The notes below the pieces were generated by a model, which worked only from the letters and a program-made list of their open reading frames with translations, was not told where the DNA came from and did no database searches. A stretch of DNA of 62,377 nucleotides from Acidihalobacter sp. (GTDB taxonomy: Bacteria; Pseudomonadota; Gammaproteobacteria; DSM-5130; Acidihalobacteraceae), in assembly GCA_027013225.1 (NCBI GenBank), contig JALUXU010000030.1, positions 1-62,377 on the forward strand. The letters run 5' to 3'. The stretch's first letter is position 1; each line of letters opens with the position of its first letter. The translations under genes and the position numbers were made by a program. Positions 8,619 through 44,037 of this stretch are shown piece by piece.

Positions 8619-8654
8619 CAGGTCAACATACAGGCGAGCTGTAGCGGATTTCGG

Positions 8655-9536: not shown

Positions 9537-9588
9537 GCTCGATCTCCTCGAAGAGTGGTGTATGAAGATACCTTGCGGCACCGGAAGC

Positions 9589-10721: not shown

Positions 10722-10737
10722 GGTTTTAATACCTCGA

Positions 10738-10875
10738 TTACTTGACTTTTGAAAGTTTACTCATGGCGGCATGCCAGCGCGTCAAAATCGGGCTCTTGTG
10801 CTCATTTACGCTCTGTAAACTGCGCTTTTCGCCCCATTTTTCCTTCTCCCGGCCCGCCTGAGCGAATTTCAACAT
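10738..10875 (-). CDS. candidate small basic protein between recO and pdxJ
   Basis: A 45-codon frame from ATG 10875 to TAA 10738 fills most of the recO-pdxJ gap and ends 16 bp before the pdxJ start. The product begins MLKFAQAGREKEKWGEK and ends MSKLSKVK; it is rich in Lys, Arg and Glu and has no membrane segment. I do not recognise it. Support is positional (same strand, operon-like spacing) and an AGG run directly before the ATG, which is a poor ribosome site. It could equally be an untranslated leader for pdxJ. Confidence 0.3.
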   Translation of the reverse strand: MLKFAQAGREKEKWGEKRSLQSVNEHKSPILTRWHAAMSKLSKVK

Positions 10876-10902
10876 CCTGCCAAAGGATCACAGGGGGCTA
10901 AT

Positions 10903-11664: not shown

Positions 11665-12590
11665 TTCGGTGCGTCCATCTCCAGCTTGTGTAAAAACCTC
11701 GGATCGTCCTGCCAGCCGGGGCGAACTTTCACCCATAGTTGCAAAAACGCCTTGCGGTCCACCAATGACTCTATGTTTCGCCGTGCTTGAATGCCGATCG
11801 CTTTCATGCGCGAACCGCCCTTGCCGATGAGAATCGCTTTTTGCCCCCCGCGCTCCACCCAAAGCGTCGCTTCAATGTCAACGAGATCCGCTCTTTCCTC
11901 GAAATGGTCGATGGTCACGGCCACGGCATAAGGCACTTCTTCACCCAATTGGCGCATGACGGGTTCGCGGATAAATTCCGCGCAGAGAAAGCGCAGGCTG
12001 CGATCGGTCAGTTGATCTTGCGGCCAGCATGCGCCATTTTCAGGCAAATGCGAAAGCGTGCGCTCCAACAAGCGATCAACGTTGGCGCCCTTGAGTGCGG
12101 AGATAGGGAAGATTTCAACAAAATCGTGTTTGGCGCCGATTTCCTGCAAAAAAGGAAACAAGTCCTCGCGCCGCGGCAAGCGGTCGATCTTGTTGATCAA
12201 CAACATGATGGGACGGCCTTCTTGCGCCAATGCAGAAAGGATGCGGTCTTCGGCCTCGCCCCATCGTCCTGCGGCTACCATGAACCACTCCAGATCCGCC
12301 TCGGCCATGGCGCTCATGGCGGCGCGATTGAGCGCCTGATTCAAAGCGCGCGCCTTGCGCATTTCATGGATACCGGGCGTATCCAGCAATGCCACCTGGC
12401 CCACCGGATGGTCGATGATGCCCAACAGCCGATGGCGGGTGGTTTGGGGTTTGGCAGCGGTGATCGCCAGCTTCTGCCCCAGAAGACGATTCAGAAGGGT
12501 GGATTTGCCCACATTGGGCCGCCCGATAATGGCTACGCTGCCACCGCGGCGGGAATCACTGATTTCATCTGTCAATGCCGTCTTCTCCAT
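11661..12590 (-). CDS. era: ribosome-maturation GTPase Era
   Basis: Era binds the 3' end of 16S rRNA and checks 30S assembly. The 309-residue protein has G1 GRPNVGKSTLLNRLLG, G2/G3 TTRHR...DTPGIHE, G4 INKIDRL, and a C-terminal KH domain with IGKGGSRMKAIG. The start ATG 12590 lies 26 bp inside the rnc 3' end; the longer frame upstream is rnc in another frame. The C-terminus KLEMDAPK stops at the recO GTG. Confidence 0.95.
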   Translation of the reverse strand: MEKTALTDEISDSRRGGSVAIIGRPNVGKSTLLNRLLGQKLAITAAKPQTTRHRLLGIIDHPVGQVALLDTPGIHEMRKARALNQALNRAAMSAMAEADLEWFMVAAGRWGEAEDRILSALAQEGRPIMLLINKIDRLPRREDLFPFLQEIGAKHDFVEIFPISALKGANVDRLLERTLSHLPENGACWPQDQLTDRSLRFLCAEFIREPVMRQLGEEVPYAVAVTIDHFEERADLVDIEATLWVERGGQKAILIGKGGSRMKAIGIQARRNIESLVDRKAFLQLWVKVRPGWQDDPRFLHKLEMDAPK

Positions 12591-28539: not shown

Positions 28540-28872
28540 TCAAACAGCGGCTGTATGACCATACGCTTTGGCGGCACGCCGAACCAGGGTGCAATGTCGC
28601 AAAGCAGTGGCCGCGGCGGCTTTGCGTGTCTCAACAATTTCCACCGTACGCTGGTTGAGCGCCAGCATCTCCTGCAATACGATGCGCACGCCTGGCGCTT
28701 CCTCAGCGGTGACGGGCGGGCTCAGCAAGCTGGAAAGCTCGCTTTTCAATTGCGCCTCTCTAGCCAGCAATCGCTCCCAATCATCCGAAATGGCGGCCTC
28801 TTCATGAACCTTCCGCGCCTGCCCCAGAAGGGCCGTCAAACGCTTTATGCGGCTCGCCTGCTTTTGTGTCAC
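28540..28872 (-). CDS. fliT: FliT-like flagellar chaperone
   Basis: A 110-residue helical protein starting with GTG that overlaps the fliS stop (GTGA). The pattern WERLLAREAQLKSELSSLL and the position directly after fliS fit the FliD chaperone FliT. Sequence conservation in this family is weak, so the call is positional. Confidence 0.6.
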   Translation of the reverse strand: MTQKQASRIKRLTALLGQARKVHEEAAISDDWERLLAREAQLKSELSSLLSPPVTAEEAPGVRIVLQEMLALNQRTVEIVETRKAAAATALRHCTLVRRAAKAYGHTAAV

Positions 28873-29279
28873 GATGCAACCGCCTCCTTATTGGCTGGCC
28901 TGATGGCGTCCCATGCAGTTTTGATTTCCAGCATCAAACGGGCCGCTTCATCCAGCGCCGTTGCATCATTATGCGCGTTGGCATGGATCAGGCGAGCGCC
29001 GATGTAATCATACAGGGCATCGAGATTTTGGGCGATCTCGCCGCCTTTCTCATGATCCAGATGAGCCCTCAATCCATCGAGAATGCGTACGGCATGGGTA
29101 ATGCGCCGGGCTTTCAAGGCCGCGTCGTTGCGCTGGATGGCTCCCTTGGCGGAAGCAATGCAATCGAGCACGCCCTTCATGAGCTGCTGGATTATGGCAT
29201 GCGGATCGGAATCGAACAGTGGCGCTTCCACATCCGATTGCCGATATTGATTTATCGCCTTCTGGCTTTGACTCATCAT
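28869..29279 (-). CDS. fliS: flagellin export chaperone FliS
   Basis: FliS caps the C-terminus of flagellin before export. The 136-residue protein has INQYRQSDVEAPLFDSDPHAIIQQLMKGVLDCI, i.e. the usual YRQ...P/LVQLLYDGAL region (here PHAIIQQLMKGVLDCI), and AARLMLEIKTAWDAI at the end. Two consecutive ATGs (29279, 29276) could start it. It follows fliD after 39 bp. Confidence 0.93.
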   Translation of the reverse strand: MMSQSQKAINQYRQSDVEAPLFDSDPHAIIQQLMKGVLDCIASAKGAIQRNDAALKARRITHAVRILDGLRAHLDHEKGGEIAQNLDALYDYIGARLIHANAHNDATALDEAARLMLEIKTAWDAIRPANKEAVAS

Positions 29280-29318
29280 TTTGGGTGTTTCCTCCTAATG
29301 GGTACGTCGTCAGCCTGC

Positions 29319-30710
29319 TCAGGCTTTCTTGCTGCTCGTGGTGCTTGTGACCCCCGGCAAACTTGCCAATGCCTGTGTCAGATAGTTGCCGGTGTTTTTC
29401 AGATTCGCCACCAGCGTATCCATGGAATTGTATTGTGCAAGCAACATTTTTTGTTGCTGCTTCATTTGCGTACCAAGCGCGCTGAGCTGGTTCTGCAAGT
29501 CGGTCAATTGCTGATTAAGCGTGTTGGTACGGGCGGTGAGCGTGCCGTTCGGTCCGACCATGGAACTGACCACACTGCCCAATGTACTCCCCGCGCCTTG
29601 CAGCGCCTTGATCACGCCTGAATAATCGCTATTGAGCGCCGTCGTCAAGGTGGCCGTGTTCAGCCTCAGAGTGCCATCCGAATTGGCGGTGATGCCTAAC
29701 GCCATCAGATTGGAATAATTCGCGGGCCCCCCGGCAATGGTTTGCACCACACCATTTTGCAACTGACTGGTAAGCGTCCGCAAAGTCGCGTCACCCAACA
29801 GAATGCCTGCTTGCTTGGTTTTGCTGTCGTAGCTGTCATACTTGCTGACATCCTGAGCATAGCTGTTGTATGCCTTGACGAAGGATTGTACGGCGCTAAC
29901 AACGGCGTTCGTGTCTGGAGTCACGCTGACAGTGGCCATACCAGTGGACCCCAGCGTGAAATTCACGCCTTGTACCGCGTCCGTTATGGTATTGCTCTGG
30001 GAGGTGACGGCGATGCCGTTGATGGTCAACTTGGCATCGGCCGGAGCGACCGTCTGCGTCATGCCCGTGCTGCCGCCATTGTAGGTGAACGCCGACAAGC
30101 TCGAACTCGAAGACGTGATGTTCAGTTCGTTGTTGGAACCTGTCTTGGAGGTCAACGCCAGCTTGTAACCGCTGCCATCGTTGACTACGGTAGCGGAAAC
30201 GCCGAAATTGGCCTGATTGATGGCATTGGCCACCCCTTGCAGGGTGTTGTTGCTGGAATCGATGGTGACTTGTACCGGCGCCCTACTATTGGCAACGAAA
30301 CTGCCGCTTGAGTAACTGCCAAACTGAAAAGTCAGCGTTCCGGTGCCAACGCTCGCCGTCGGCGAACTGAAATCCGTGCTGGCAATGCTTTGCGCACTGG
30401 CCAACTGGGTGACATCGACGGCGTAATTGCCTGGAGCGGCGCCACTCTGAGTGGATACCGCGACAACGCCGGGCGCCGTCGAATTGGCGCTGTAACTTGG
30501 ACTGAGATTTTTCCAGGCTGTGAGCGCCGTGCTGATCGAGGAAACATCGCTGTTGATGCTGCCATAGGCGGACAGCTCGGCGTTGATCGTCGCTTCACGC
30601 CGCTTGATTTGGGTTTGCTGGGCCCCGTAATCGGCCTGCAGAAGCTTGGAGACGATCGAATTGATGTCAAGGCCCGAACCGATTCCGGGAGAGCTGATGA
30701 TTCCTGACAT
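29319..30710 (-). CDS. fliD: flagellar filament cap protein FliD
   Basis: FliD (HAP2) sits at the filament tip and folds incoming flagellin. The 463-residue protein has the N-terminal GIGSGLDINSIVSKLLQADY motif, the Ser/Thr-rich exposed domains and a C-terminal coiled coil (TLNQQLTDLQNQLSALGTQM, YNSMDTLVANLKNTG) typical of the family. Confidence 0.95.
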   Translation of the reverse strand: MSGIISSPGIGSGLDINSIVSKLLQADYGAQQTQIKRREATINAELSAYGSINSDVSSISTALTAWKNLSPSYSANSTAPGVVAVSTQSGAAPGNYAVDVTQLASAQSIASTDFSSPTASVGTGTLTFQFGSYSSGSFVANSRAPVQVTIDSSNNTLQGVANAINQANFGVSATVVNDGSGYKLALTSKTGSNNELNITSSSSSLSAFTYNGGSTGMTQTVAPADAKLTINGIAVTSQSNTITDAVQGVNFTLGSTGMATVSVTPDTNAVVSAVQSFVKAYNSYAQDVSKYDSYDSKTKQAGILLGDATLRTLTSQLQNGVVQTIAGGPANYSNLMALGITANSDGTLRLNTATLTTALNSDYSGVIKALQGAGSTLGSVVSSMVGPNGTLTARTNTLNQQLTDLQNQLSALGTQMKQQQKMLLAQYNSMDTLVANLKNTGNYLTQALASLPGVTSTTSSKKA

Positions 30711-30796
30711 TGAATAACCTTCCTACGCTTGTCTAAGCGTCGAGTGAGTGGCGGGAAATCCTGCTGTGACCAACCCCGCCGCCGGTTTTTGATATC

Positions 30797-31201
30797 TCAG
30801 GTTTTCACCTTGACGCCGGTGCTGTTCACGCCATTGTGTTCCAGCAAAGTTTGTGCCAACTGAAGCATGTACTCCGGCGGGATCTGCCGCAACACTTTTC
30901 CATTGGCTTGATCAACGATTTTTATCACCGTCTGACCGGTGGATTTGTCCACAGTGAACTCGAGAGAGCGGTTTTGCTTCTGTAAATAGTCATTTATTTG
31001 AACTACCGCCTTGTTTACTTCGGCATGAGAAGCCCTTGGGGCCTGCTTGCCGCCTTGTATGGCATTCGATGGCAAGACATTTCCGCTTTTGATCGGGTGG
31101 GCCACGGCATTCGCAGGCGTGTTCGTCTGATTGACCTGATTCGCTGGCTTTACCGACTCTCCGCGGGGCGGCGAAGCCTGAATGTCATTGATTGTGTTCA
31201 T
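30797..31201 (-). CDS. flaG: FlaG family protein
   Basis: A 134-residue protein with a variable Pro/Asn-rich N-terminal half and the conserved FlaG core (residues ~70-130: VQINDYLQKQNRSLEFTVD, GQTVIKIVDQANGKVLRQIP, EYMLQLAQTL). FlaG affects filament length and lies between fliC and fliD in many flagellates. Confidence 0.9.
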   Translation of the reverse strand: MNTINDIQASPPRGESVKPANQVNQTNTPANAVAHPIKSGNVLPSNAIQGGKQAPRASHAEVNKAVVQINDYLQKQNRSLEFTVDKSTGQTVIKIVDQANGKVLRQIPPEYMLQLAQTLLEHNGVNSTGVKVKT

Positions 31202-31253
31202 GAGGTCGTCCCCGCTTCAATGAACCATCGTTAAAACTTGCGCGGATTTCAGA

Positions 31254-31277
31254 GGAACCGCCGCTTCCGGCGATTCC
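31254..31277 (-). terminator. hairpin after fliC, possible terminator
   Basis: A 10-bp stem with one mismatch and a 4-nt loop (GGAATCGCCG / CGGCGGTTCC) starts about 20 bp beyond the fliC stop. There is no strong U-tract after it, so it may be an attenuating or mRNA-protecting hairpin between fliC and flaG. Confidence 0.4.
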
Positions 31278-31296
31278 CCTGATGATCTGCCACGCC

Positions 31297-32709
31297 TTAC
31301 TTGAGCAGCGAGAGCGCCACCTGTGGCAAGGCATTGGCCTGCGCGACCATGGCCACGCCCGCCTGCCGCAACACCTGCGCCCGGCTGAGCGCCGCCGTTT
31401 CCTGAGCGAAGTTCGCATCCTGGATGCGCGATCGCGCCGCCTCGGTATTGGTAGTCGCCGACTGCAGATTGGAAATGGTCGCCTGGAAGCGGTTTTGCAA
31501 CGCGCCGAGCTGGCCGCCGAGCTGAGCCATCTGTTTCAAGGCGAAGTCCATGGCCTTGATGGCGGTTTGCGCATTCTGCGCCGTGAGGATGTTGGTGCTG
31601 TTGAGGGTCAGCGTGTTGCTGTCAAAGTTGGCGCTTGTGGCACCAGCACCGGAAGTCGTGAAGCCGAAGGTAGCCAGTTCGGCGGCAGCACCACTGACCT
31701 GGATCGTTCCGCCCACGCTGGTATAGAGCTCGATGCCGGCCTGGAAGGTACCCGACCCGCTGCTGGTGCCAGAAGCCGCGACATTCGTGCTGCTGCCACT
31801 GAAGGTGATGGAAGCACCAGTGGTATCACCGAGCACGATGCCGGAGCTGCCGCTGGCGGTCGCTGTCACGCCGGTCTGCGCGGAATAGGCGTTGATTGAA
31901 TCCACCGCCTGGGTCAAAGTGGCGTTTGCGGCTATACTGATATTAACGCCATTGAGCGTCAGGGTCGTCGCGCCGCCGCTGGCGGTGTAACTCAAGGTGC
32001 CGGAGACAGCACTGGCCGTTTGTGCATACACGCCCGTTTGTGAAGAGGCATTGTTGATTGAGGCGATCACATTGGAAAGCGACTCGCCCGCTGTGGTCGC
32101 GATCTGAGCGGAACCATTGGTTCCATTGATGGTGAACGAACCTGACGCGCTGGCGGCAAGAGTGCCGCTGAACACGCTGTTGGCGTCGCCATAGGTGGCG
32201 CCCAGATTCTGCCCGCGCACGTCAATCCCGGTGGCGGTGATCGTCTGGTTGGCATTGGCGCCCACCTGGAAAACCAGTTGAGTCAAGGTGCCGTTCAGGA
32301 TGTTCTGGCCGTTGAACTGGGTATTCTGGGCTGTGGTGTTGACCTGCTGGATATTCTGCTGCACTTCCTGGTTCAAGGCCTGACGATCCTGCGGCGAATT
32401 CGAGGCATTGGCCGCTTGGATCGCGAGCGTGCGTATGGTCTGCAGTGAGTTGGTCACGGTATTGAGCGCACCGTTGGCCACCTGGGCAAAGGAAATGCCG
32501 TCGTTGGCGTTGCGGATCGCCTGATTGAAACCGTTGATCTGCGAGGTCATGCCCTGGGCGATGGCGTAACCGGCCGGATCATCCGCAGGACTGTTGATGC
32601 GCAGACCGGAAGACAACTGCTGCAATGCGTTGTCAAGCTGGTTCTGCGTTTTGCTCAGGTTGTTCTGAGCCTGCAAAGACGCAATGTTGGTGTTGATGAC
32701 GAGGGACAT
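31297..32709 (-). CDS. fliC: flagellin
   Basis: The filament subunit, 470 residues. The N-terminal D0/D1 region (MSLVINTNIASLQAQNNL, LSSGLRINSPADDPAGYAIA) and the C-terminal D1/D0 region (RIQDANFAQETAALSRAQVL, ALPQVALSLLK) are fully conserved. The central ~230 residues are Ser/Thr/Ala/Gly-rich, offering many possible O-glycosylation sites. A sigma28-type promoter precedes it, and a large glycosyltransferase gene lies immediately upstream. Confidence 0.97.
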   Translation of the reverse strand: MSLVINTNIASLQAQNNLSKTQNQLDNALQQLSSGLRINSPADDPAGYAIAQGMTSQINGFNQAIRNANDGISFAQVANGALNTVTNSLQTIRTLAIQAANASNSPQDRQALNQEVQQNIQQVNTTAQNTQFNGQNILNGTLTQLVFQVGANANQTITATGIDVRGQNLGATYGDANSVFSGTLAASASGSFTINGTNGSAQIATTAGESLSNVIASINNASSQTGVYAQTASAVSGTLSYTASGGATTLTLNGVNISIAANATLTQAVDSINAYSAQTGVTATASGSSGIVLGDTTGASITFSGSSTNVAASGTSSGSGTFQAGIELYTSVGGTIQVSGAAAELATFGFTTSGAGATSANFDSNTLTLNSTNILTAQNAQTAIKAMDFALKQMAQLGGQLGALQNRFQATISNLQSATTNTEAARSRIQDANFAQETAALSRAQVLRQAGVAMVAQANALPQVALSLLK

Positions 32710-32810
32710 GACGTAACCTCCGATGAATACGTGGTAACTTGTTGACTAGGCGGTCCGCTGCCCGGTCCGCTGAGTTTCATAGCGCAGCTATTTGGCTGCC
32801 TACGCCCAAG

Positions 32811-32837
32811 ATATCGTCGGAAGTTTGAATATCTTTA
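32811..32837 (-). promoter_or_regulatory. sigma28 (FliA)-type promoter of fliC
   Basis: The minus strand reads TAAAGATA, 11 bp, then GACGATAT. The FliA consensus is TAAAGTTT-N11-GCCGATAA, so the spacing is exact and the mismatches few. The predicted leader to the fliC ATG is about 95 nt. Confidence 0.75.
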
Positions 32838-32868
32838 GTATTTTTTTTCCGCCTTGTGCCATCGGCGT

Positions 32869-35800
32869 TCAATCCGGCAACCAGGCTTTTTGCCATACTT
32901 CCAGATTGCGTTCCAAAAGCCAGTGCGCTTTTATATGGGCTCGCAACTCATTTCCAGCCTGATGCGCCGCATCCAGCTCAGTGACATGTGCCCGGATCGC
33001 CTCCACCCAGTCGCGGTGACGGTTGCGCACACGGGTCACGGGAAAGCCGCCCTGGTAGGGGGTCAGGTCCGAGCACACAACGGGGTAACCCAGAATGCCG
33101 TATTCGAGCAGGCGCAAATGGCTCTTGGCGTGGTTGAAGGGCACGTCTTCCAGGGGCGCCAGCGCCAGATCGAGATCGAGGCTGGCCAGTTTGGCCGGAT
33201 AGTCATCCAGCGCAACCGGCGGATGGAACTCCTTGACGAAGGGCCGAAGCCGCTCCGGACACATACCCATAAACACCCAGTCCACTTCGTCCTTGAGTGT
33301 TTCCACAACGCCGGCAATGAGATCCAGATCGCCGCTGTGGCCTATGCCGCCTGCCCAGCCAACGCGCGGCTGGCTGCCGACGCCGCGGAGAGGCGCGAGA
33401 TGCCCCCATCGGGCCTCTTCGATGTAATTGGGGGCCACGCGCACGTCATCCGACAATCCGGCATAGGCTTCGGCCAGCACCTCGGTGGCCACCACCAGAC
33501 GGTCGCACAGGCCCGTGGCGCGCCGCAGCCGTTTGTACATGTCTTTGGGCAAATGCCGCTTGTGCACGCTTTTGACCGGCAGGTTCGTCACCAGATCGTC
33601 GATCTCGTACACGCAAAACAGATCGTTGAATCGCTTGTGGCGCTCCATCGCTTCGAGCTGATGGTCTTCGATCTGGCGCTGCAGCACCAGAGCGTCCGGC
33701 CGCAGGCGCGCCAGTTCGGGCGGCGTGTAGATCCGCTGCGACGCCTCGCCCTGGATGAGGCCGGCATTCGCCAGCGCGCGGGTGGGCGCGATGATGCGAT
33801 ACTCGCCGCAGCCCTCGCGATCGGCGGGCTGGGTGATGACGCGCGGTACCGGTCGCCAGTCCGGATCCCATCGCAAGGCCGGATCCGGCTCGGGCACGAC
33901 ATCGGTCGTGGCCAGGCTCAGACAGCGATTGTAAGCCGGGTCGGTCGCCATCTCGGGGAGCCAGCGCCGGTACATCACCGCCTGTTCTTCGGCGAAACGG
34001 CGCGCTTTCACCGGATCGGACGCGGCTTCGACGCCGCTCGTCTGGCTCTTGGAGCCTTCGTGCATGAGCACGGCGTACGGCGTCCATACGATCAGCTTGC
34101 CCTGCTTTGTAATCTTTAAGCACAGATCAATGTCGCTGTAGGACACCGCCAACGCCTCTTCATCCAGCCCGCCAACCTGCTCGAACAATGACTTTCGCAC
34201 CAGCAGGCAGGCGCCGGTGACGGCGGACAGGTTCTGATCCAGCTGCAAGCGCCCATAATAGCCGGATGACTTGGCATCCTGGCCGATATAGACGTGCTCA
34301 GCCGGCCCCTTCATTCCCAGGATAACGCCTGCGTGCTGGACTGTTCCGTCGGGGTAGAGCAGCTTCGCGCCCACCACGCCGACTTCCGGGCGTTGGGCAT
34401 GACTCATCATGGCGTCCAGCCAATCTTCGTGCAGCACGGCTGTGTCGTTGTTGAGCAACAGCAGATAATCGCCCCGTGTCTGCTGGACTGCCAGATTGTT
34501 CATCGCCGAATAATTGAACGGATGCGGATAATCCAGAACCCGCAAGCGTCCATTCAGCTCATTTTCCAGCGCCTTCAGCCCTTCCAGATATTGCACCGCC
34601 TCAGCTTCGTCGCTGCCATTATCCACGATCAGGATTTCGTAGTTCGGCCAGGCGGTGCGCGACAGCAACGATTCGAGGCAGCGTTGCAGTACTTCGCGCT
34701 GGTTGCGGGTGGGAATGATGATGCTGACCAAAGGCTGTGCGTCATGCCGATAACGCACCCGGCTGGTCGCCGGCAACGGCCCGGGCTCGACCTGAGCCGA
34801 AATGTCGAGTCGTCGCAAATGAGCCTCCAGCGCCTGTCGTGCGGCGGCGAGCACCGCGTCCAGCGGCCGGCTGCCCGACTTGTACGAAGGGTCATGGGCA
34901 ACCAGCGCACCGCTGACGTGCCCTATGCCCTCCGCACCCACGAGCTCATAGGCGCGTAGCATGAAGTCGTATTCTTCGCAGCCTTCATAGGCCGGATGGA
35001 AACCACCGAGCCGCTCAAACACATCCTTGCGCACGGCGAGCGCGGTACCCGTGTAGGGCAGACTGCGCAAATAATCGAGATTGAAATCCGGCTTGTAATG
35101 TGGATTGGAAAACGGCTCGTCGCCATTTTGTTGGGCCTCGTCGAAATAAATGAGGCCCCATTCGGGATGAACGGATATCGCTTGCGTCAGTAACAAAAGG
35201 AAGTCTTCTGAAACGATATCTCCCTGTCGAAGTATCAACGTCCATCCCTGCTGCGCGCTTTCCAAAGCGGAATTCACAGTCGCTGGACTTGCAGCATCGA
35301 TCTCGACCACCTTGGCCGGAGAAAGCCACTGGCGCTCGAACGCATCGATGGTTGAACTCACATGATCACTCGTCCCGTTTACCCTGATGACTACTTGCAG
35401 CGACCGGGCAATATCCGAGTGTTTGCGACTGATCCAGTCTCGCGCAACATCCTCACGAAAGGCAGGAATCTGTATGGTCGCTTGATTATCCCGCTTTGGT
35501 TGGGCAGTGCTATAGATGGATCGGTAGGCATCAGCATGTTTTGAAAGGCTCCAGTTTTCGAGCACTTCTGCTTGCGCCGCTTTTCCGATCTCTCGCCGCT
35601 TGATTGGATCCCTTATCAGTGCATCGACCGATGCATACCACTCGTCGGTGGTATTGGATACCCGCATGCCCGTACGGCCATGCTCTACGATGGCGTATGG
35701 GGCGAGATCTGAAAATACCGCGGGTATGCCCAAAGCGGAATATTCCAGCCATTTTATCGGACTCTTTGAGCGATTGAATGAGTTGTCGGCGAGTGGCACG

Positions 35801-37281
35801 ATGGCCAGGTCGATACGCGCCTGACGCAGGATTTCCGCATAGCTTCTATATGCAGGCTCGAAAGGTAAAACTTCCGTTTCACCCAGATTTATTTCCTGCG
35901 ACGGTGTCATTCCCATGAAAATGAAGCGGATCGCATCTCCATGAACGGCATGCAAGCGTTGTAGTGCTGGTAGCACGATGGAAAGATCTTCCGCATGCGT
36001 CAAGGTGCCTGCATAAAGCACTCGCACAGGCGATTGCGGGTCAGAATCCAAAGATAACGGGCGCCAAAGAGATTCATCGATATAGTTGGGCCATACGAAG
36101 ATATTGGAATTGAGCGAAGCATAGGCTTCTTTTAGCGAAGTCGTCGAGACGATGACCGCATCGGCCAAGCGGACGCACTGTTCGATATAAGGACGCTGTT
36201 TGGACAAACTCAAATGATGCGGATTTGATTCCGGCGTATCTGTCAGCAGATCATCGGTTTCATATACCAAAATCTTGTCATCAGCCTTGAGTTGTTCCAA
36301 TAGCGGCATGGTTTCCTGGGTCGGGAAAAACCGTTGAACCACAATCAGATCAGCTGCTTCAAGTGCATTGTGATCTATTCTGTCAGAACCGGCGTCATCG
36401 AACTGGACCGCCCACTGAATCTCGAATTCGTCTTCTAATCGCTTGAATGGCGCCAAAATGCGAATGTCCGCGCAAGCGTATTCTTGACGGTCAAAAGACA
36501 AAACCGCCACTTTCCGCTTTTTCCTTTGCGGACCTGAAGGCGAATTAGACGACATAGGATGGGCCCGCAGTAAATATTGTAGGGTACGAAAATCATCCCA
36601 ACGCGCCCGTGTCATCCCTTTGAGAACAACGCCGCCGATATCCAAATCTGCGGAAACGGTTTTCGGGCCATGTGGCCAAGGCGGGATACGATGATCAGGA
36701 ATGCGCACCATCGTTTCGACACGATAACCAGTCTCGGTCAGCAAACGCTCGGCAGTGGCTCGGGTAAAGAAACGAAGATGAGTCACATCCAACAATCCTT
36801 CCGCCTCGTATTCCCATCGGCCGGCTGCCAACTGCGAAATAATCCAGGCATTGGCGATATTGGGAATGGAGATCAGAAGCAAGCACGCATCAGCCAGATA
36901 AGGGCGCAATTTTTCAAGCAGATGCCATGGGTCGACCACATGCTCCAGCACGTCTCCGGCCACTAGCAGGTCGAACGCCCCCGGTTTCCATCCCATGGTT
37001 GTGAAATCAATTTGATCCAGATCGGCTTCTATAACCTGATCCAAATGCATGCGCGCCGCCGTAGCCGCCTGCTGATCGCGTTCAATGCCCACGACATGCG
37101 CTTGGGGTTGCATGCATTTGAGTTGCCGACCAGTCGCACCGCTCCCGCAACCGAGCTCCAGCGCGCGTGTTACCTTGCGATCAAGCAAAGCCAGCAAATC
37201 GGTGCGTGGGTTCGAACTATAGGGAGCGGACGGATCGTGTGCCTCGTGGAGCAATCGCCAGACTGGAGCGGCAGAATTCAT
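32869..37281 (-). CDS. multidomain methyltransferase/glycosyltransferase, probable flagellin glycosylation
   Basis: A 1470-residue protein. In order I see: a class I SAM methyltransferase (~1-240; ALELGCGSGATGRQ, VAGDVLEHVVDPW); a GT-B/GT4-like domain (~255-590; VAVLSFDRQEYACADIRI, VLYAGTLTHAEDLS); a degenerate GT-A-like segment (~610-820; GLIYFDEAQQNG, FHPAYEGCEEYDFMLRAYE); a canonical GT2 domain (~835-1110; VSIIIPTRNQREVLQRC, LLLNNDTAVLHEDWL); and a second GT4-like domain (~1150-1470; GYPVVCSDLTPYQGG). Lying 27 bp after flgL and just before fliC, it probably glycosylates flagellin. It could instead serve surface glycan synthesis. Confidence 0.78.
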   Translation of the reverse strand: MNSAAPVWRLLHEAHDPSAPYSSNPRTDLLALLDRKVTRALELGCGSGATGRQLKCMQPQAHVVGIERDQQAATAARMHLDQVIEADLDQIDFTTMGWKPGAFDLLVAGDVLEHVVDPWHLLEKLRPYLADACLLLISIPNIANAWIISQLAAGRWEYEAEGLLDVTHLRFFTRATAERLLTETGYRVETMVRIPDHRIPPWPHGPKTVSADLDIGGVVLKGMTRARWDDFRTLQYLLRAHPMSSNSPSGPQRKKRKVAVLSFDRQEYACADIRILAPFKRLEDEFEIQWAVQFDDAGSDRIDHNALEAADLIVVQRFFPTQETMPLLEQLKADDKILVYETDDLLTDTPESNPHHLSLSKQRPYIEQCVRLADAVIVSTTSLKEAYASLNSNIFVWPNYIDESLWRPLSLDSDPQSPVRVLYAGTLTHAEDLSIVLPALQRLHAVHGDAIRFIFMGMTPSQEINLGETEVLPFEPAYRSYAEILRQARIDLAIVPLADNSFNRSKSPIKWLEYSALGIPAVFSDLAPYAIVEHGRTGMRVSNTTDEWYASVDALIRDPIKRREIGKAAQAEVLENWSLSKHADAYRSIYSTAQPKRDNQATIQIPAFREDVARDWISRKHSDIARSLQVVIRVNGTSDHVSSTIDAFERQWLSPAKVVEIDAASPATVNSALESAQQGWTLILRQGDIVSEDFLLLLTQAISVHPEWGLIYFDEAQQNGDEPFSNPHYKPDFNLDYLRSLPYTGTALAVRKDVFERLGGFHPAYEGCEEYDFMLRAYELVGAEGIGHVSGALVAHDPSYKSGSRPLDAVLAAARQALEAHLRRLDISAQVEPGPLPATSRVRYRHDAQPLVSIIIPTRNQREVLQRCLESLLSRTAWPNYEILIVDNGSDEAEAVQYLEGLKALENELNGRLRVLDYPHPFNYSAMNNLAVQQTRGDYLLLLNNDTAVLHEDWLDAMMSHAQRPEVGVVGAKLLYPDGTVQHAGVILGMKGPAEHVYIGQDAKSSGYYGRLQLDQNLSAVTGACLLVRKSLFEQVGGLDEEALAVSYSDIDLCLKITKQGKLIVWTPYAVLMHEGSKSQTSGVEAASDPVKARRFAEEQAVMYRRWLPEMATDPAYNRCLSLATTDVVPEPDPALRWDPDWRPVPRVITQPADREGCGEYRIIAPTRALANAGLIQGEASQRIYTPPELARLRPDALVLQRQIEDHQLEAMERHKRFNDLFCVYEIDDLVTNLPVKSVHKRHLPKDMYKRLRRATGLCDRLVVATEVLAEAYAGLSDDVRVAPNYIEEARWGHLAPLRGVGSQPRVGWAGGIGHSGDLDLIAGVVETLKDEVDWVFMGMCPERLRPFVKEFHPPVALDDYPAKLASLDLDLALAPLEDVPFNHAKSHLRLLEYGILGYPVVCSDLTPYQGGFPVTRVRNRHRDWVEAIRAHVTELDAAHQAGNELRAHIKAHWLLERNLEVWQKAWLPD

Positions 37282-37308
37282 ACGAACAAGCCTTTTTAAG
37301 TCATAAGG

Positions 37309-38511
37309 TTACAAGTAATTGAACAGCGACAGCCCCTGCACCTTGGTATAGGTCTGTTCCGCCGCCTTCAGAGCGGTGAGTTGCTGCTGAAACAGGCTGA
37401 TGGCCTTGGCATAGTCAAGATTCTGGATCTTGGATTGGGCGGTTTGCAGTTGCAGGCCCCAATCCTGTTGCAAGGCTTGCTGGCTGTTGATAGCTTCGAG
37501 ACGCGAGCCGACGCTGGCCTGAACATTGATGACATTATTCAATCCCTGATCCAGGCTGGAGAGCTCCTGATTGACCTGATTATGCAGCGCCGTGAGCGAG
37601 ACAGTGCCGTTGGCCGGCGTATTGAGCGTGGTCACGATGTTCTGTAGGGTCTGGAAAATGCTTTGCTGGCCACTGGGAGCGATGCTAAATGTATCGCCTG
37701 CGGCCGGCGCACCGCTGATGTGTGTCTGGATGCCTGAGAAGCTGATGTTCGCGCCGCTTTGATAGGTCTGGTTGTTGAGCACTATCGTGTTCGTGGTGGT
37801 ATCGGTGACCGTAAAAGTATTGGCACTGGTGAACTTGATCTGATAGGTGTCGCCTGTATAGGCGCTGGGATTGATCACCGAGCCCGGATCGATTATGCCG
37901 GTGCCGGTATTGGTGCTTGCCGCTGTCGCGGTGAAGGTGCCGTTTCCGGCCGGTATCTGCATGAACACGGCCGAACCGGGGTCGTTGCTCGCTACCTGGC
38001 GGCTGCTGCCGATTTGTATGTAACGCTGCAATGAGTCGCCCGCATAGCTGAAACCACCGCTGGCGTTTTGACTGAATGGAGAGGTATGTACCTGCGAGCC
38101 GGAGAAAATGTAATTGCCGCTGCTGTCGCGGGTGTTGGCAAAGCCCAGCACTTCCTTCAGCGATTGGCTGACTTCGGACGCGATACCGGCGCGGCTTTGG
38201 TTGTTTTGCGAGCCGTTGTTGGCTTCTATGACCAGGGTGCGCACGCGCTGCAGCACGTTCTTGACCTGATTGAGCGCGCTTTGCTCCAGATTCAAATCCG
38301 CGGTCGCCGCGTTGCCGTTCTTGATCCATTGAGAGTTGGTGTCGATAGCCGACTGCAATTGCAAGGCCTGAGCCGCTCCCGGCGGATTGTCCGCTGGCGT
38401 GACGATGTTGCGGCCGGTCGAAAGCTGCTCCTGGGTATGATTGAGTTGCGATTGTTGCTGGAGAATCGAGCTGATGGCATTTTGAGTAAATTCGGCAGTG
38501 GAAAGACGCAT
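37309..38511 (-). CDS. flgL: flagellar hook-filament junction protein FlgL
   Basis: FlgL (HAP3) joins hook and filament. The 400-residue protein has the flagellin-like N-terminus (MRLSTAEFTQNAISSILQQQ, LSTGRNIVTPADNPPGAAQA) and a C-terminal helix (NLDYAKAISLFQQQLTALKAAEQTY). It follows flgK after 10 bp. Confidence 0.95.
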   Translation of the reverse strand: MRLSTAEFTQNAISSILQQQSQLNHTQEQLSTGRNIVTPADNPPGAAQALQLQSAIDTNSQWIKNGNAATADLNLEQSALNQVKNVLQRVRTLVIEANNGSQNNQSRAGIASEVSQSLKEVLGFANTRDSSGNYIFSGSQVHTSPFSQNASGGFSYAGDSLQRYIQIGSSRQVASNDPGSAVFMQIPAGNGTFTATAASTNTGTGIIDPGSVINPSAYTGDTYQIKFTSANTFTVTDTTTNTIVLNNQTYQSGANISFSGIQTHISGAPAAGDTFSIAPSGQQSIFQTLQNIVTTLNTPANGTVSLTALHNQVNQELSSLDQGLNNVINVQASVGSRLEAINSQQALQQDWGLQLQTAQSKIQNLDYAKAISLFQQQLTALKAAEQTYTKVQGLSLFNYL

Positions 38512-38521
38512 GGCGATATCC

Positions 38522-40453
38522 TCATTGAACCGCTTGCAACAAAGTCTGGAACAGGCTGTTCGCGGTGGCGATCACTTTCGCCGATGCCTGATAAGCTTGC
38601 TGATATTTGAGTAGATTAGCGGCTTCCTGATCGAGATTGACTCCGGACAGGGATTGCTGCAGGGAGGTGGCCTGTTTGAGCAACGCCTGATTGGTCTGGG
38701 CGCTGGTCTGGGCGGTTTGAGTTTCGGTGCCTATTTTGGCGACGAGCTGACTGTAGGCGGCGCCGAACGTGGCCGTCGGACCGTTGCCACCATTTTCGAG
38801 CAGGTTCTGCTGCTGTGAAGCGGCCATCTGCAGCGCATTGCCATTGTCACCCGGGCCTGGAGGCGTCACATCGAAACTATCGCCGGCTTTGGCGCCGCCG
38901 CTCAGGTCCACGCTCCAACCGTTGAGCGCAATGGTCGCGCCGCTGGTCTGGCTGTATGAGCCACTCGACAGCGTCGTGTTGCTGGCAGGGCTGATCGCTG
39001 TCCATGTGTTCGGTGGATTACCGCTGATGGTGATGGTCACCGGCGTGGTATTCACGCTGCCTGCGGCGGTGGTCAAGGTCGGCTGGCTGATGGTCGCGGT
39101 GCCGACGTTGGCCTGGTTGGCGGCGCTGGCCACCACCGAGGCAGCGGCGATCTGGCGCGGATCGGTGAGATTCAAAGCCAGATCCCGCGCCGCATAGGTG
39201 GTAGGCTCGATGGTGTAGCTGTCCCCTGCACTGACGGTGGTGGGCACGACGATGCTCAAGCCGCCGGCCGTGTAAGGATTGGTAGTGGTGCCACTGCCGC
39301 TCATGCTTACGTTCTGCCCGTTGGTGGTATTGGTAAGCGTCCAGGCGCTGCCGTTGTAGCTCAGGCGATAATTGTCGGCGGTCAACTGGCTGGGGTCAGT
39401 GATACTCACGGTAGGCAGGCCGCTGCCGCTTGCGTTGCTGCTGGCCGAAAACACCTGCGGCTGAGGCACCTTGAAAAAATCGGTGCCGACCTGACCGTTG
39501 AGATCGATGCCTTGTTTCTGAAGCGTGTTGAATTGCGTGCCGATGCCGATGGCGATGCGGCCGAGGCCGTTCTCGGCCGCGGTCAGCAGTTTTTGTGACT
39601 GCAAAAGGCCGCCGAGTTCTCCGCTGGTAACGACAGTTGAGACCGGCACATGTCCGTTTGGGGTGACGAACACGAGTCCTGGCCGGTTGGGATCGCCATT
39701 GGCTGGCGCCACACCGAGCCGGGTCACGCTCGATCCCACTACCAGCGCTTGGCCGGTGCCTATGGTGACATTGATGGAACCATCACTCTGAGGAACCGTG
39801 TTGACGCTGACGTACTTGGCGAGCTGGTTGATCGCGGCGTCGCGCTTATCGAGCAGACTGTTGGGTTGCCCCACCGGATTATTGTTGCTCGCGGCCATGA
39901 CCTGGGTATTCAGATTGGCGATTTGCGTCGCCAGGCTATTGATGTTGCTGACATCATTATTGAGTTGGGCATTGATTTGCCCGCCAATCTGATTGAACTG
40001 CTGATACAGCGTGTTGAACCGGCCTGCGAGCACACCACCCTGGCTCAGCAATTCTTGGCGGGCCGGGATCGAAGCCGGCACGTTGGCAACTCCCTGCACG
40101 GCGTTGTAAAACGATTGCAATGCAGGTTGCAGTCCGGCGCTTTGGCTGCCGAGAAGATTATCCACCTGATTGGCGTACTGGCTATAGGCCTGGTACTGAT
40201 TGTTTGCGGCGGTCGCATTGGCGACTTGAGCATTGACGAATTGGCTGACGATGCGCTGCACGCCGCTGACCTGCACGCCATTGCCAAGATAGTAATCGCC
40301 GTTCGGCGTATCCGGACGCGTGGCGAAATCCGCGCGCTCACGCACATAGCCGGGCGTGTTGGCATTGGAGATATTGTTGCTGGTGGTCTGCAACGCTTGC
40401 TGATAGCTCAGCAAAGCTGAAGTACCGATACCAAGAATGTCTGTCCCTGTCAT
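38522..40453 (-). CDS. flgK: flagellar hook-associated protein FlgK
   Basis: FlgK (HAP1) is the first junction protein after the hook. The 643-residue protein begins with the rod/hook family motif (GTSALLSYQQALQTTSNNISNANTPGYVRE) split here as TSNNISNANTPGYVRE, and ends in the C-terminal helix LDQEAANLLKYQQAYQASAKV. The central region is Thr/Ser-rich and variable. Confidence 0.95.
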   Translation of the reverse strand: MTGTDILGIGTSALLSYQQALQTTSNNISNANTPGYVRERADFATRPDTPNGDYYLGNGVQVSGVQRIVSQFVNAQVANATAANNQYQAYSQYANQVDNLLGSQSAGLQPALQSFYNAVQGVANVPASIPARQELLSQGGVLAGRFNTLYQQFNQIGGQINAQLNNDVSNINSLATQIANLNTQVMAASNNNPVGQPNSLLDKRDAAINQLAKYVSVNTVPQSDGSINVTIGTGQALVVGSSVTRLGVAPANGDPNRPGLVFVTPNGHVPVSTVVTSGELGGLLQSQKLLTAAENGLGRIAIGIGTQFNTLQKQGIDLNGQVGTDFFKVPQPQVFSASSNASGSGLPTVSITDPSQLTADNYRLSYNGSAWTLTNTTNGQNVSMSGSGTTTNPYTAGGLSIVVPTTVSAGDSYTIEPTTYAARDLALNLTDPRQIAAASVVASAANQANVGTATISQPTLTTAAGSVNTTPVTITISGNPPNTWTAISPASNTTLSSGSYSQTSGATIALNGWSVDLSGGAKAGDSFDVTPPGPGDNGNALQMAASQQQNLLENGGNGPTATFGAAYSQLVAKIGTETQTAQTSAQTNQALLKQATSLQQSLSGVNLDQEAANLLKYQQAYQASAKVIATANSLFQTLLQAVQ

Positions 40454-40489
40454 GTTTTGACTCCCGTCACTCCAGTGAGCGCTATACCT

Positions 40490-41443
40490 TCAGGTTATCG
40501 TCCCGTTGGCCGGATTCTTGAAGTGGCCGCCGTAAGCCAGGACTTCGGAATTGCGCAGAACATCGCCGATCTTCTGCGCATAACGGGGGTCGGTGGCATA
40601 ACCGGCCTCTTGCAGGCGGCGCAGATACGCCGCTGCATCATCCGCCGATTCCAGCGCCTGCCGATAGCGTGGCTGCGTCGTGATTAATCGCGCATAATCA
40701 TTGAAACTGGCCTGTATGGATCCATAGGCCCGAAACCGGGCTTTTTCGCGGCAGGCCACGCCATCGCGATATTCCACGGTGGGTACGATCGCGACCTTCC
40801 CTTGCCAATCGGGGCCGGCCTTGATGCCGAACAAATTGAAGCTGCTCTGTCCGTCTGCTCCTGTCGGTACGCGCTTGCCCCACCCGCTCTCCAGCGCTGC
40901 CTGAGCGATCAATACTTGTGGGGAAACGCCGATTTTTTCTGCCGCGGACTGCGCATAGGGAAGCACTTCCTTTACGAACGCTTGGGGCGTGGCGGGCGGC
41001 CAGGGAATTTCTGATGCAGGAGAAGCGCGGTGCGTAGCCACCGTAGTATCGCTTGGAGAAGGCGACGGGGCCACATGCGATCGGACAAGGGCACGCGGCG
41101 AGGGATTCTCAACGGAAGGTGCGGTTTCCTGCGGTTTGATGCCGAGCGCTTTCTCGATCATGCCGCGCAGCCCGATGCCCTGGCCTTGGGCCATGTCGAG
41201 CGCAATTTGGTGATCATACAGGCCACGATAGAGTCGCATCTGAGAATCGCCGAACAGGCTGTCTCTTGGCGTGGCCTTGCGCATGGATTGCAGCATCATT
41301 TCTATGAACACCGCCTCGAACTGGCGCGCTGCTTCCCGTTTCGCCGCCGCGGTTTGCTGGTGAGCGGCGGCCTTGAGGTTATTCAGACCCTGAAAATCGG
41401 TGTAAACCGAAGCCATGGCGGCGGATCCATTGGGCAGGGTCAT
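40490..41443 (-). CDS. flgJ: FlgJ rod-cap protein with peptidoglycan hydrolase domain
   Basis: FlgJ scaffolds rod growth and opens the peptidoglycan. In 317 residues, ~25-110 is the rod-binding domain (RQFEAVFIEMMLQSMRKATP, MRLYRGLYDHQIALDMAQG). ~150-310 is the glucosaminidase-type domain (VLIAQAALESGWGKR, SSFNLFGIKAGPDWQGKV). The catalytic Glu of ALESGWG is present. Confidence 0.95.
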   Translation of the reverse strand: MTLPNGSAAMASVYTDFQGLNNLKAAAHQQTAAAKREAARQFEAVFIEMMLQSMRKATPRDSLFGDSQMRLYRGLYDHQIALDMAQGQGIGLRGMIEKALGIKPQETAPSVENPSPRALVRSHVAPSPSPSDTTVATHRASPASEIPWPPATPQAFVKEVLPYAQSAAEKIGVSPQVLIAQAALESGWGKRVPTGADGQSSFNLFGIKAGPDWQGKVAIVPTVEYRDGVACREKARFRAYGSIQASFNDYARLITTQPRYRQALESADDAAAYLRRLQEAGYATDPRYAQKIGDVLRNSEVLAYGGHFKNPANGTIT

Positions 41444-42574
41444 CTAGATCACCTCCAGCTTGGCTCTGAGCGCGCCGGCTTTTTTCAGCGCCTCGAGGAT
41501 GGCGATAAGATCATCGGGCGTACCGCCGACGGCATTGATCGCGCTGACGATGGAGTTGAGCGAAGTGCCCGCCTTGAAAACGAATGCGTGCGCCTTGCCC
41601 TGCTTGGCAGTCACCTTGGAAGTGGGCGCCACCACCGTCTTACCTTTGGAGAACGGCTTGGGCTGGCTTACTTGCGTGACCGGCTTGATAGTCACGCTCA
41701 GATTGCCGTGCGCCACCGCAGCAGGCAACACCGTCACACCAGCGCCAATGATGACCGTGCCGGTACGCGCATCAACGATCACCTGTGCCGGAGGCGCCGC
41801 CGGATTGACATCGAGGTTTTCGATAAAAGAAACAAAGGCCACGCGCTGCCCTGCATTGGCGGGCATGTGTACGCGAATGGACACGGCATTGAGCGCCTCG
41901 GCCGTGCCGGGACCGGCCGCCTGATTAATGGCTTGCGCCACCCGATTGGCGGTAGTAAAGCTTGGCGCATCGAGGTTTAAGGTCAGCGAGTTGCCCTGAT
42001 CAAACGGCGTGGACACGCTTCGCTCGATGGTCGCCCCGGAGGGAATCAATCCCACCGTCGGCGTGTTGACCTGGGTGGTGGCACCCCCCGGGCCGGTGGC
42101 CTGATAACCGGCAACCACGAGATTGCCCTGGGCCAGGGCATAGACCTGTCCGTTGGCCGCGCGCAAGAGCGTCATCAGCAGCACTCCGCCGCGCAGGCTC
42201 TTGGCGTTGCCGATGGAAGAAACCGTCACGTCGATGTGCTGCCCCTGGCTGGCGAAAGGCGGCAGACTGGCGGTGACCATGACCGCCGCCACGTTCTTGA
42301 GCTGCGGATTCACATTGCTAGGAATGTTCACTCCGAAGCGGGTCAGCATGTTCTCAATGCTCTGAATGGTGAACGGGGTCTGCGAGGTCTGATCGCCTGT
42401 GCCATTGAGGCCGACTACAAGTCCGTAACCGACCAGTTCGTTGCTCTGCACGCCAGAGATCGTCGCCAGATCACGCACCGGCTCGGCGGCGGCGCCATTC
42501 CACCCCGCAAGCCCCGTCGCCAACGCCAGCCACAGGAGCAAAAACAGGCGGGAGGCTTTCAAAACGGCCACCAT
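41444..42574 (-). CDS. flgI: flagellar P-ring protein FlgI
   Basis: FlgI forms the periplasmic P ring around the rod. The 376-residue precursor has a signal peptide (residues ~1-30; LFLLLWLALATGLAGWNGAAA) and conserved VRDLATISGVQSNELVGYGLV, NVAAVMVTASLPPFASQG, and a C-terminal GGTPDDLIAILEALKKAGAL. Overlaps the flgH stop by 16 bp. Confidence 0.96.
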   Translation of the reverse strand: MVAVLKASRLFLLLWLALATGLAGWNGAAAEPVRDLATISGVQSNELVGYGLVVGLNGTGDQTSQTPFTIQSIENMLTRFGVNIPSNVNPQLKNVAAVMVTASLPPFASQGQHIDVTVSSIGNAKSLRGGVLLMTLLRAANGQVYALAQGNLVVAGYQATGPGGATTQVNTPTVGLIPSGATIERSVSTPFDQGNSLTLNLDAPSFTTANRVAQAINQAAGPGTAEALNAVSIRVHMPANAGQRVAFVSFIENLDVNPAAPPAQVIVDARTGTVIIGAGVTVLPAAVAHGNLSVTIKPVTQVSQPKPFSKGKTVVAPTSKVTAKQGKAHAFVFKAGTSLNSIVSAINAVGGTPDDLIAILEALKKAGALRAKLEVI

Positions 42575-43239
42575 GCGTTGAAGAAGCGCGCCAGCCAGCC
42601 TTCGCGGTTGGCACTGTTGAGCTGACCGGTGCCGAAATAGCCTATATGCGCATCGGCGATCTGAGTGGAGAGCACCGTATTCTGCGGCGTGATATTGGCC
42701 GGATCGACGATGCCGCGCAGGCGCACATATTCACGCCCCTGGTTGATGGTGATCCAGTTCTGCCCCTGCACCACCAGATTGCCATTGGAAAGCACCTTGG
42801 CCACGGTCACCGTAATCGTGCCGCTCACCGTGTTGCTCTGCGATGACTGCCCCTTGCCGCTGAAACTGTTGCCGCTGGAAACGCTGGCGCCGAGCTTGGG
42901 CAGAGTCTGGCCCAGCAGGCTGGGGGTGGCCACGCTCACCCCGGTCTTTTTAGATGTCGTGGTATCCGCCGACTTGGTGGCCGATGTGCTTTCATTGAGC
43001 ACCACGGTGAGCAGGTCTCCCACTCGATGCGCCTTGGGATCGACGAACAGCGAGGTATCCTGCTGCGGTTGATACAAAGAGCCATTGTTTTGCGAAGCGG
43101 TCTTGGGCGCTACCGGCATAACCGCGGCGTATTTTGGGTTGTTGGGCGGGATCGGATTGGGGCCGATGGTGGCGCAACCGCCCAGCGCGAGAAGACCCAG
43201 GACCGGAAGAGATGCAAGCAATCGTCTGGATGTGTTCAT
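42559..43239 (-). CDS. flgH: flagellar L-ring lipoprotein FlgH
   Basis: FlgH forms the outer-membrane L ring. The 226-residue precursor has a lipoprotein signal with lipobox LLALGGCAT (lipidated Cys ~22), followed by SLFVDPKAHRVGDLLTVVL and NGNLVVQGQNWITINQGREYVRLRG, which are conserved. Confidence 0.95.
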   Translation of the reverse strand: MNTSRRLLASLPVLGLLALGGCATIGPNPIPPNNPKYAAVMPVAPKTASQNNGSLYQPQQDTSLFVDPKAHRVGDLLTVVLNESTSATKSADTTTSKKTGVSVATPSLLGQTLPKLGASVSSGNSFSGKGQSSQSNTVSGTITVTVAKVLSNGNLVVQGQNWITINQGREYVRLRGIVDPANITPQNTVLSTQIADAHIGYFGTGQLNSANREGWLARFFNAWWPF

Positions 43240-43251
43240 GACACGTTCCGC

Positions 43252-44037
43252 TCACACGTTGTTGTTGAGGTATTGCAGCATCTGGTCAGTAGTCGAGATG
43301 GCTTTGGAATTGATCTCGTAGGCCCGCTGGGTTTCGATCATGTTGACCAGGGATTCGACTACGTTCACGTTGGAGGTCTCCAACGCGCCCTGTTGCAGGG
43401 TGCCGAGTCCATTCAGGCCTGGCGTGCCGGTCTGGGCCGCGCCACTGGAAGCGGTCGCCTCATACAGGTTGTTTCCGATCGGCTGCAAACCGGCCGGATT
43501 GATGAAATTGGCCAGTTGGATGGTGCCGATCTGGGTGGGGGTGGTGCTGCCAGCGATGGTCGCGGTGACGGTGCCGTCCGAGCCAATGGTGAGGCTGGTG
43601 GTATTGGCCGGCACGGTGATTGCCGGTTGCAGCGGATAGCCACTGGCGGTAACGATCTGGCCACTGCTGTCGAGCTGGAACGAGCCGTCGCGGGTATAGG
43701 CCGTGCTGCCGTCCGGCATGAGGATCTGCAAGAATCCCTGCCCTTGGATGGCCACATCCAGATTGTTCTTGGTCTGAATGATGTTGCCCTGGGTGAACAA
43801 TTTCTCCGTCGAACCCACCCGAACCCCCGTACCCAGCATCAGGCCGGTGGGCAATTGCGTATTCTGGGTTGACTGAGCGCCGGGCTGGCGCACATTCTGG
43901 TAAATCAGGGATTCGAAGCTGGCCCTGCCCTTCTTGAAGCCGGTCGTGTTGACGTTCGCCAGATTGTTGGCGATCACGTCCATGTTGGTCTGCTGGGCAT
44001 TGAGCCCTGTCATGGCGATCCAAAGTGCGGGATTCAT
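43252..44037 (-). CDS. flgG: flagellar distal rod protein FlgG
   Basis: FlgG forms the distal rod. The 261-residue protein has the N-terminal [20 protein letters not shown] motif and the C-terminal [20 protein letters not shown] motif that define this rod protein; the length is standard. Confidence 0.96.

Follow-up and report, generated by a model that had tools for sequence, protein, structure and literature searches.

A probable Fgt1-type flagellin glycosyltransferase with a constant core and a variable front part, encoded between flgL and fliC in Acidihalobacter sp.

Fusions of methyltransferases and glycosyltransferases that act on flagellin or S-layer glycans have already been published. 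For the GT2 protein of C. difficile, transfer of two rhamnose residues was reported and their methylation by this protein proposed; that a single polypeptide may both add and methylate the sugars of flagellin has been put forward before (PMC5207246). The flagellin glycan of Pseudomonas syringae has been given as mVio-Rha-Rha, with rhamnose put on a flagellin serine by Fgt1 and the terminal modified viosamine transferred by VioT (PMC3927599). Deletion of fgt1 was reported to result in unglycosylated flagellin (PMC3402453, PMC12915359). The function of Fgt1 is taken here from secondary statements in open papers.

The window, that is, the whole stretch of DNA analysed, comprises 62,377 nucleotides of a contig from Acidihalobacter sp. 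(JALUXU010000030.1). All features described below are encoded on its minus strand. A single open reading frame of 1470 amino acids without internal stops occupies positions 32869-37281; it follows flgL (37309-38511), located directly upstream, at a distance of 28 bp, and precedes fliC (31297-32709), which encodes the likely acceptor. The ORF list and the homology of the neighbouring genes agree on this arrangement, as proposed in an earlier note made from the DNA letters alone. The motif TAAAG-N16-CGATA at 32812-32837, upstream of fliC, is sigma-28-like; this pattern, which was picked after viewing the sequence, was matched once in the window versus 0.05 matches expected. Homopolymer runs of at least 6 nucleotides are absent from the large gene, and phase variation within it was rejected. 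ORF analysis, Pfam, homology and the tree place the gene product, which is probably cytoplasmic, among enzymes of the known Fgt1 type; it does not represent a new enzyme class.

Domain search, homology and a structure model revealed the five-domain make-up that the earlier note had suggested. The N-terminal SAM-dependent methyltransferase domain (aa 1-240; 36562-37281) matched Methyltransf_23 (PF13489; aa 30-189, 9e-14) and the PDB entry 3cc8 (1.2e-31 by sequence, 1.6e-15 by fold). It is followed by a first GT4 domain of the GT-B fold, GT4a (aa 241-600; 35482-36561), which matched Glyco_trans_1_4 (PF13692; aa 420-558, 1.3e-10) and is BshA/GlgM-like in the fold model. The next domain (aa ~606-845; 34747-35466), recognized by homology and the fold model, had been described as a degenerate GT-A segment; a recognizable DxD was indeed not found in it, but it is an entire GT-A fold and not a fragment. 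The canonical GT2 domain (aa 846-1125; 33907-34746) matched Glycos_transf_2 (PF00535; aa 853-1036, 7.9e-24); D946 of its NND motif is conserved in 41 of 53 core sequences and D1052 in 52 of 53. The C-terminal domain, GT4b (aa 1140-1470; 32872-33864), recognized at aa ~1146-1467 by homology and the fold model, is a second GT4 domain of the GT-B fold and carries 34 of the 38 residues that are invariant in the 53-sequence core alignment. Since the first GT-A lacks a recognizable DxD, at most three glycosyltransferase sites look active. GT4a and GT4b are paralogues of only ~30% identity, which rules out a very recent duplication of a whole module. Methyltransferase and glycosyltransferase domains are present in one chain according to Pfam, as in WsaE. 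Two other kinds of flagellin glycosylation were considered and rejected: an enzyme of the PA1091/FgtA b-type, as no phosphotransferase family was present in the Pfam scan of the protein, and Maf/nonulosonate glycosylation, as PF01973 (Maf/MptE-like) was unmatched in both the genome and the protein.

The GT-A, GT2 and GT4b domains form a conserved core (residues ~606-1470), which was found in 77 complete homologues. The survey started from 84 loci (the window, 68 loci and 15 further ones). Ten of these (L038, L089, L092, L093, L094, L098, L101, L102, L103 and L107), in which no single ORF contained the whole core, were dropped, as was L116, located on the same contig as L071; the final set comprised 77 ORFs in 73 loci. 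Relatives without GT4b (L119-L123) were kept out of the core count and used for comparison. The core alignment included the window protein and 52 sequences from L036-L099, leaving out near-copies (including L059), the very divergent rows L070_12483, L041_4216 and L064_4323, and rows of some further genomes. The flanking DNA examined contained fliC for 67 of the 77 full-core ORFs. It was located directly downstream on the same strand, at less than 600 bp, in 46 cases and directly upstream in 6; 21 ORFs lay between an upstream flgL and a downstream fliC, both on the strand of the ORF. Six of the 10 ORFs without fliC in the examined flanks had less than 2 kb of sequence on one side. At the five loci without GT4b, fliC was not found.

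The flgL-adjacent gene of P. syringae was identified by us as fgt1. The core of the window protein shares 39% identity over 797 aa with Fgt1 of the P. syringae group, which retains 36 of the 38 invariant residues; VioT retains 30, and Fgt2 has no GT4b. In the tree, which was built by a quick method with SH-aLRT support and no bootstrap, the window protein belongs to a 70-row clade (SH-aLRT 100) that includes Fgt1 and excludes VioT. This homology to Fgt1 and the frequent proximity of fliC point to flagellin as the likely substrate, in agreement with the flagellar role that the earlier note had read from the gene's position. GT4b is the leading candidate for attachment of the first sugar, given its invariant residues and its absence from Fgt2. 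The centre of FliC is Ser/Thr-rich, as had also been noted: Ser plus Thr account for 27-38% in 60-residue segments starting at residues 151-331 and for 13-20% in the others. Such centres are common among flagellins, and this composition is no proof of glycosylation.

The large protein is best explained, with good probability, as an Fgt1-type flagellin O-glycosyltransferase composed of a fixed core and an exchangeable front cassette. The core (aa ~606-1470), in which the GT-A domain would be structural, would recognize FliC and attach the sugar that links the glycan to it; the second sugar is probably added by the core as well. Its sugar is most likely L-rhamnose, donated by dTDP-rhamnose; RmlA, RmlB, RmlC and RmlD all scored above curated cut-offs in the genome, which indicates a supply of this donor, and the corresponding genes are located on a different contig. 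The front module (methyltransferase and GT4a, aa 1-~605) may add an outer sugar and methylate the chain, acting as an exchangeable cassette that would set the outer flagellar glycan while core and flagellin remain fixed. The bond made by each domain, the sugars, the methylated position and the replacement of front modules by recombination are all four inferred by us. A fixed core with a replaceable front makes a long-open point directly testable, namely, which domain is responsible for placing the first sugar in large enzymes of this kind.

The part preceding the core varies among the homologues from 106 to 1779 aa and falls into 26 clusters, while the core is constant. Pfam scans covered 72 of 74 front regions, two near-copies having been dropped because of a size limit. 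In the window, the front module (35226-37310; blastn, GC3 and windowed identity) has no DNA homology to that of its one same-genus relative, G001. These ~2.1 kb encode a methyltransferase and GT4 in the window versus a methyltransferase and GT9 in the relative; both flanks of the segment share 72-79% DNA identity, and the FliC proteins are 90% identical. Of the 16 pairs whose cores are at least 80% identical, 15 have homologous front parts, and the window and G001 form the lone exception, so replacement within a genus rests on one pair. GC3 is 0.51-0.56 in the front module versus 0.65-0.76 in the core, but an FlrA-like gene in the vicinity likewise has a low value (0.58). A search with aa 1-600 against 321 genomes of the class did not reveal a close donor of the methyltransferase-GT4a module; the best matches besides the gene itself were 28-40% identical, and one of them is a free-standing 572-aa methyltransferase-GT4 gene (L162).

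The pattern of variation, a constant core and a variable preceding part, is what is new here; an earlier account of this architecture was not found in a literature survey that covered titles and the beginnings of abstracts, with subscription journals outside its coverage. Flagellar glycans affect phage adsorption, immune recognition and motility. It is conceivable, though we hold it as a tentative view, that flagellin glycans of Proteobacteria have diversified by intragenic cassette exchange. A flagellin-binding core would be anchored behind flgL and next to fliC, and the catalytic front replaced as a whole, one recombination thus rewriting the outer glycan and leaving flagellin untouched. Front modules that would count as cassettes include methyltransferase-GT4, methyltransferase-GT9, chains of GT2 domains, TPR, WbsX and others. 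A fixed core with a swappable front would explain how the coat can change at one locus between close species, and cassette exchange, if true, would be a counterpart of serotype switching contained within a single gene.

The earlier note had suggested that this protein might make and methylate an entire flagellin glycan alone. In this reading, which would be WsaE-like, each of three active glycosyltransferase domains would add one sugar in turn, and the methyltransferase would cap the chain. Catalytic-looking motifs are kept in three glycosyltransferase domains; a second core-type gene was not found in the genome, which is likewise devoid of a PF01973 match, and both WsaE and C. difficile GT2 are described as joining transfer and methylation in one polypeptide. 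However, Fgt1, Fgt2 and VioT together possess ~11 such domains for the three-sugar glycan of P. syringae (PMC3927599), so that the number of domains does not equal the number of sugars, and further glycosyltransferases in the genome could contribute. We regard synthesis by this protein alone as unlikely. The core might also add outer sugars only, the first one being attached by an unrelated enzyme encoded elsewhere. VioT has the same core architecture and adds a terminal sugar (PMC3927599), so the core by itself is no proof of initiation; yet VioT lies outside the clade, retains fewer invariant residues than Fgt1 and is encoded in a viosamine island rather than beside fliC, which makes this option rather improbable. 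Related multidomain enzymes do occur in polysaccharide loci, such as WsaE and relatives in Xanthomonas, but a role in LPS or exopolysaccharide synthesis with an incidental flagellar position is very improbable in view of the fliC-flanked homologues, the placement of the core in the Fgt1 clade and the location of rml genes on another contig.

Among known systems, FgtA/PA1091 of P. aeruginosa PAO1 is likewise a flagellin glycosyltransferase, whose loss is stated to leave the peptide non-glycosylated (PMC11833859), but it is described as a GT2 combined with a phosphotransferase. Three further systems were compared by description only. The flagellin-island glycosyltransferases of enterobacteria (GT41 types, GT2-30) include glycosyltransferase-methyltransferase fusions at the flagellin locus (PMC4875605) but are mostly GT41. 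WsaE of Geobacillus stearothermophilus is reported to form two rhamnose linkages and to carry a methyltransferase domain in a single polypeptide (PMC3898925), but serves an S-layer glycan on a lipid carrier. C. difficile GT2 (CDR20291_0242) is a fliC-linked glycosyltransferase with a methyltransferase domain, but its gene lies downstream of fliC, and the enzyme elongates from a GlcNAc that GT1 has attached. VioT (1173 aa) shares the core architecture at 33% identity, and differs in its position outside the clade, its terminal-sugar activity and its location in the viosamine island away from fliC. Fgt1 shares a homologous GT-A/GT2/GT4b core and a gene position directly behind flgL; it differs in its size (1191 aa), in its GT2-type front domain, in lacking a methyltransferase and in that Fgt2 is encoded between Fgt1 and fliC in P. 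syringae.

A single open frame (window 32869-37281, minus strand) encodes the 1470-aa protein. Its start lies 28 bp past flgL, and about 160 bp separate its end from fliC. A Pfam scan detected three domains (methyltransferase, GT4, and GT2); homology and AlphaFold2 modelling added a second GT4 (GT4b, aa 1140-1470) and a complete GT-A fold between the first GT4 (GT4a, aa 241-600) and GT2. Both AlphaFold2 models are of good quality (aa 1-640, mean pLDDT 81; aa 255-1454, mean pLDDT 88, pTM 0.71). The best solved-structure matches were 3cc8 for the methyltransferase domain, BshA-type GT4 enzymes for GT4a, and K4 chondroitin polymerase (tandem GT-A), polypeptide GalNAc-transferases, and GT4 enzymes for the larger modelled part. 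The previous description of a five-domain protein was therefore correct. The sigma-28-like site between the glycosyltransferase gene and fliC (window 32812-32837, minus strand) points to a separate promoter for fliC, with the glycosyltransferase gene following flgL.

Residues ~606-1470, hereafter the core (degenerate GT-A, GT2, and GT4b), are common to the full homologues of this protein. In our sample of 77 complete cores from 73 loci, which is biased because it was collected with six peptides of the window protein and the best matches of another search, fliC occurred within the fetched flanks of 67 ORFs, directly downstream on the same strand in 46 and directly upstream in 6; 21 had flgL upstream and fliC downstream. 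No fliC was found in the fetched DNA of any of the five relatives without GT4b (L119-L123). Two full-core genes were present in one fetched stretch at four loci (L069, L070, L041, and L064), and some species may accordingly have two full-core enzymes. Five of the 77 ORFs (L069_12396, L080, L081, L083, and L105) contain an internal G8 or C8 run, which may be a phase-variation tract.

In the degenerate GT-A domain, the usual place of the GT2 DxD motif is mostly occupied by A/P-G-x in 53 aligned cores (G687 in 52 of them). We take this as loss of the motif, judging positional equivalence from the residue pattern. D714 is invariant and D716 occurs in 47 of 53 cores, the window protein having Ala at 716. 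This domain is conserved as a fold but probably not as a catalyst. A same-family copy in genome G004 (L107; G004:C1:2375000-2394000) lies in two frames (ORFs 9756-12428 and 7798-9966, minus strand), with a G7 tract in the degenerate GT-A coding region at the break; this may represent phase variation, decay, or an assembly error.

In the 77 ORFs, core length is confined to 764-813 aa, and the front part (aa 1-~605 in the window protein) is as short as 106 and as long as 1779 aa. The 79 front parts compared, including those of Fgt1 and VioT of Pseudomonas syringae, fell into 26 clusters. Pfam families in 72 front regions included GT2 (28), GT4-type (13), methyltransferase (up to 12), TPR (8), GT9 (4), and WbsX (4). 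The closest relatives of the window methyltransferase are fused straight to the core at three loci (L037, L038, and L039) and form a separate ORF beside it at two (L036 and L071). Locus L162 carries a free-standing 572-aa methyltransferase-GT4 gene (3877-5595, plus strand) with 26% identity to front-module residues 18-582; no flagellar genes were found in its 9.8-kb contig. At L106 (G003:C1:1212500-1231500), the methyltransferase part (about 7662-8400, plus strand) and the remainder of the gene are in different frames; its first 151 residues, read in another frame, match those of G002, a genome of the sister genus, at 96% identity. The real interest of the locus lies in this design of a fixed core and an exchangeable front, of which no earlier description was found in the literature searched.

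The sole same-genus genome in the search, G001, is collinear with the window from 28550 to 35225 and in three further blocks from 37311 to 43299, at 72-79% DNA identity, but has no DNA match for 35226-37310, i.e. from the flgL stop to codon ~686. Protein identity is 5-10% for aa 561-600, 25-50% for 601-680, and mostly 70-100% beyond 700; FliC, FlgL, and FliD share 90, 79, and 84%. G001 possesses a methyltransferase and GT9 at the place of the methyltransferase and GT4 of the window, and G002 has a methyltransferase and GT4 of another type. GC3 is 0.51-0.56 in the window front module versus 0.65-0.76 in the core; one nearby gene is also low. From these sequence comparisons, we read the difference as a cassette replaced through recombination. 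Loss and independent gain of the front, or its very fast divergence, are possible alternatives. Among 16 pairs whose cores are at least 80% identical, this is the sole one with non-homologous fronts, which limits the reading.

A P. syringae-group genome was recognised through primers printed in PMC3927599. Its flgL-adjacent gene (1191 aa) shares 39% identity with the window core over 797 aa and, as we infer from the PCR of PMC3402453, is fgt1. The next gene, taken as fgt2 (1001 aa; L148 7056-10061, minus strand), encodes GT-A and GT2 and no GT4b domain at all; vioT (1173 aa) shows 33% identity to the window core. Of the 38 residues invariant in the aligned cores, Fgt1 keeps 36 and VioT 30, and in the tree the window protein's clade includes Fgt1 and excludes VioT. 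The core is a known family. According to published work, Fgt1 transfers rhamnose to serine (PMC3927599), flagellin is unglycosylated in fgt1 mutants (PMC3402453, PMC12915359), and it is still partly glycosylated on loss of Fgt2 (PMC12915359); the absence of GT4b from Fgt2 may explain this partial effect. The window genome encodes RmlABCD and gave no match to PF01973.

Most likely, the core would bind FliC before export and attach the linking sugar, probably rhamnose. GT4b is the strongest candidate for the site of initiation, because 34 of the 38 invariant residues lie in it and because it is absent in Fgt2, without which some glycosylation persists, and present in Fgt1, without which none does; VioT, too, contains GT4b, although 8 of the 38 residues differ there. 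The front module would then add and methylate outer residues. The protein may possibly make the whole flagellin glycan alone, as the earlier note proposed, but in P. syringae about 11 GT domains, spread over three such proteins, serve a glycan of mVio-Rha-Rha (PMC3927599), and domain number therefore overstates sugar number. Adding and methylating within one chain is not a new concept: it has been described for the C. difficile GT2 enzyme (PMC5207246) and WsaE (PMC3898925), and methyltransferase-bearing flagellin glycosyltransferases have been published for enterobacteria (PMC4875605).
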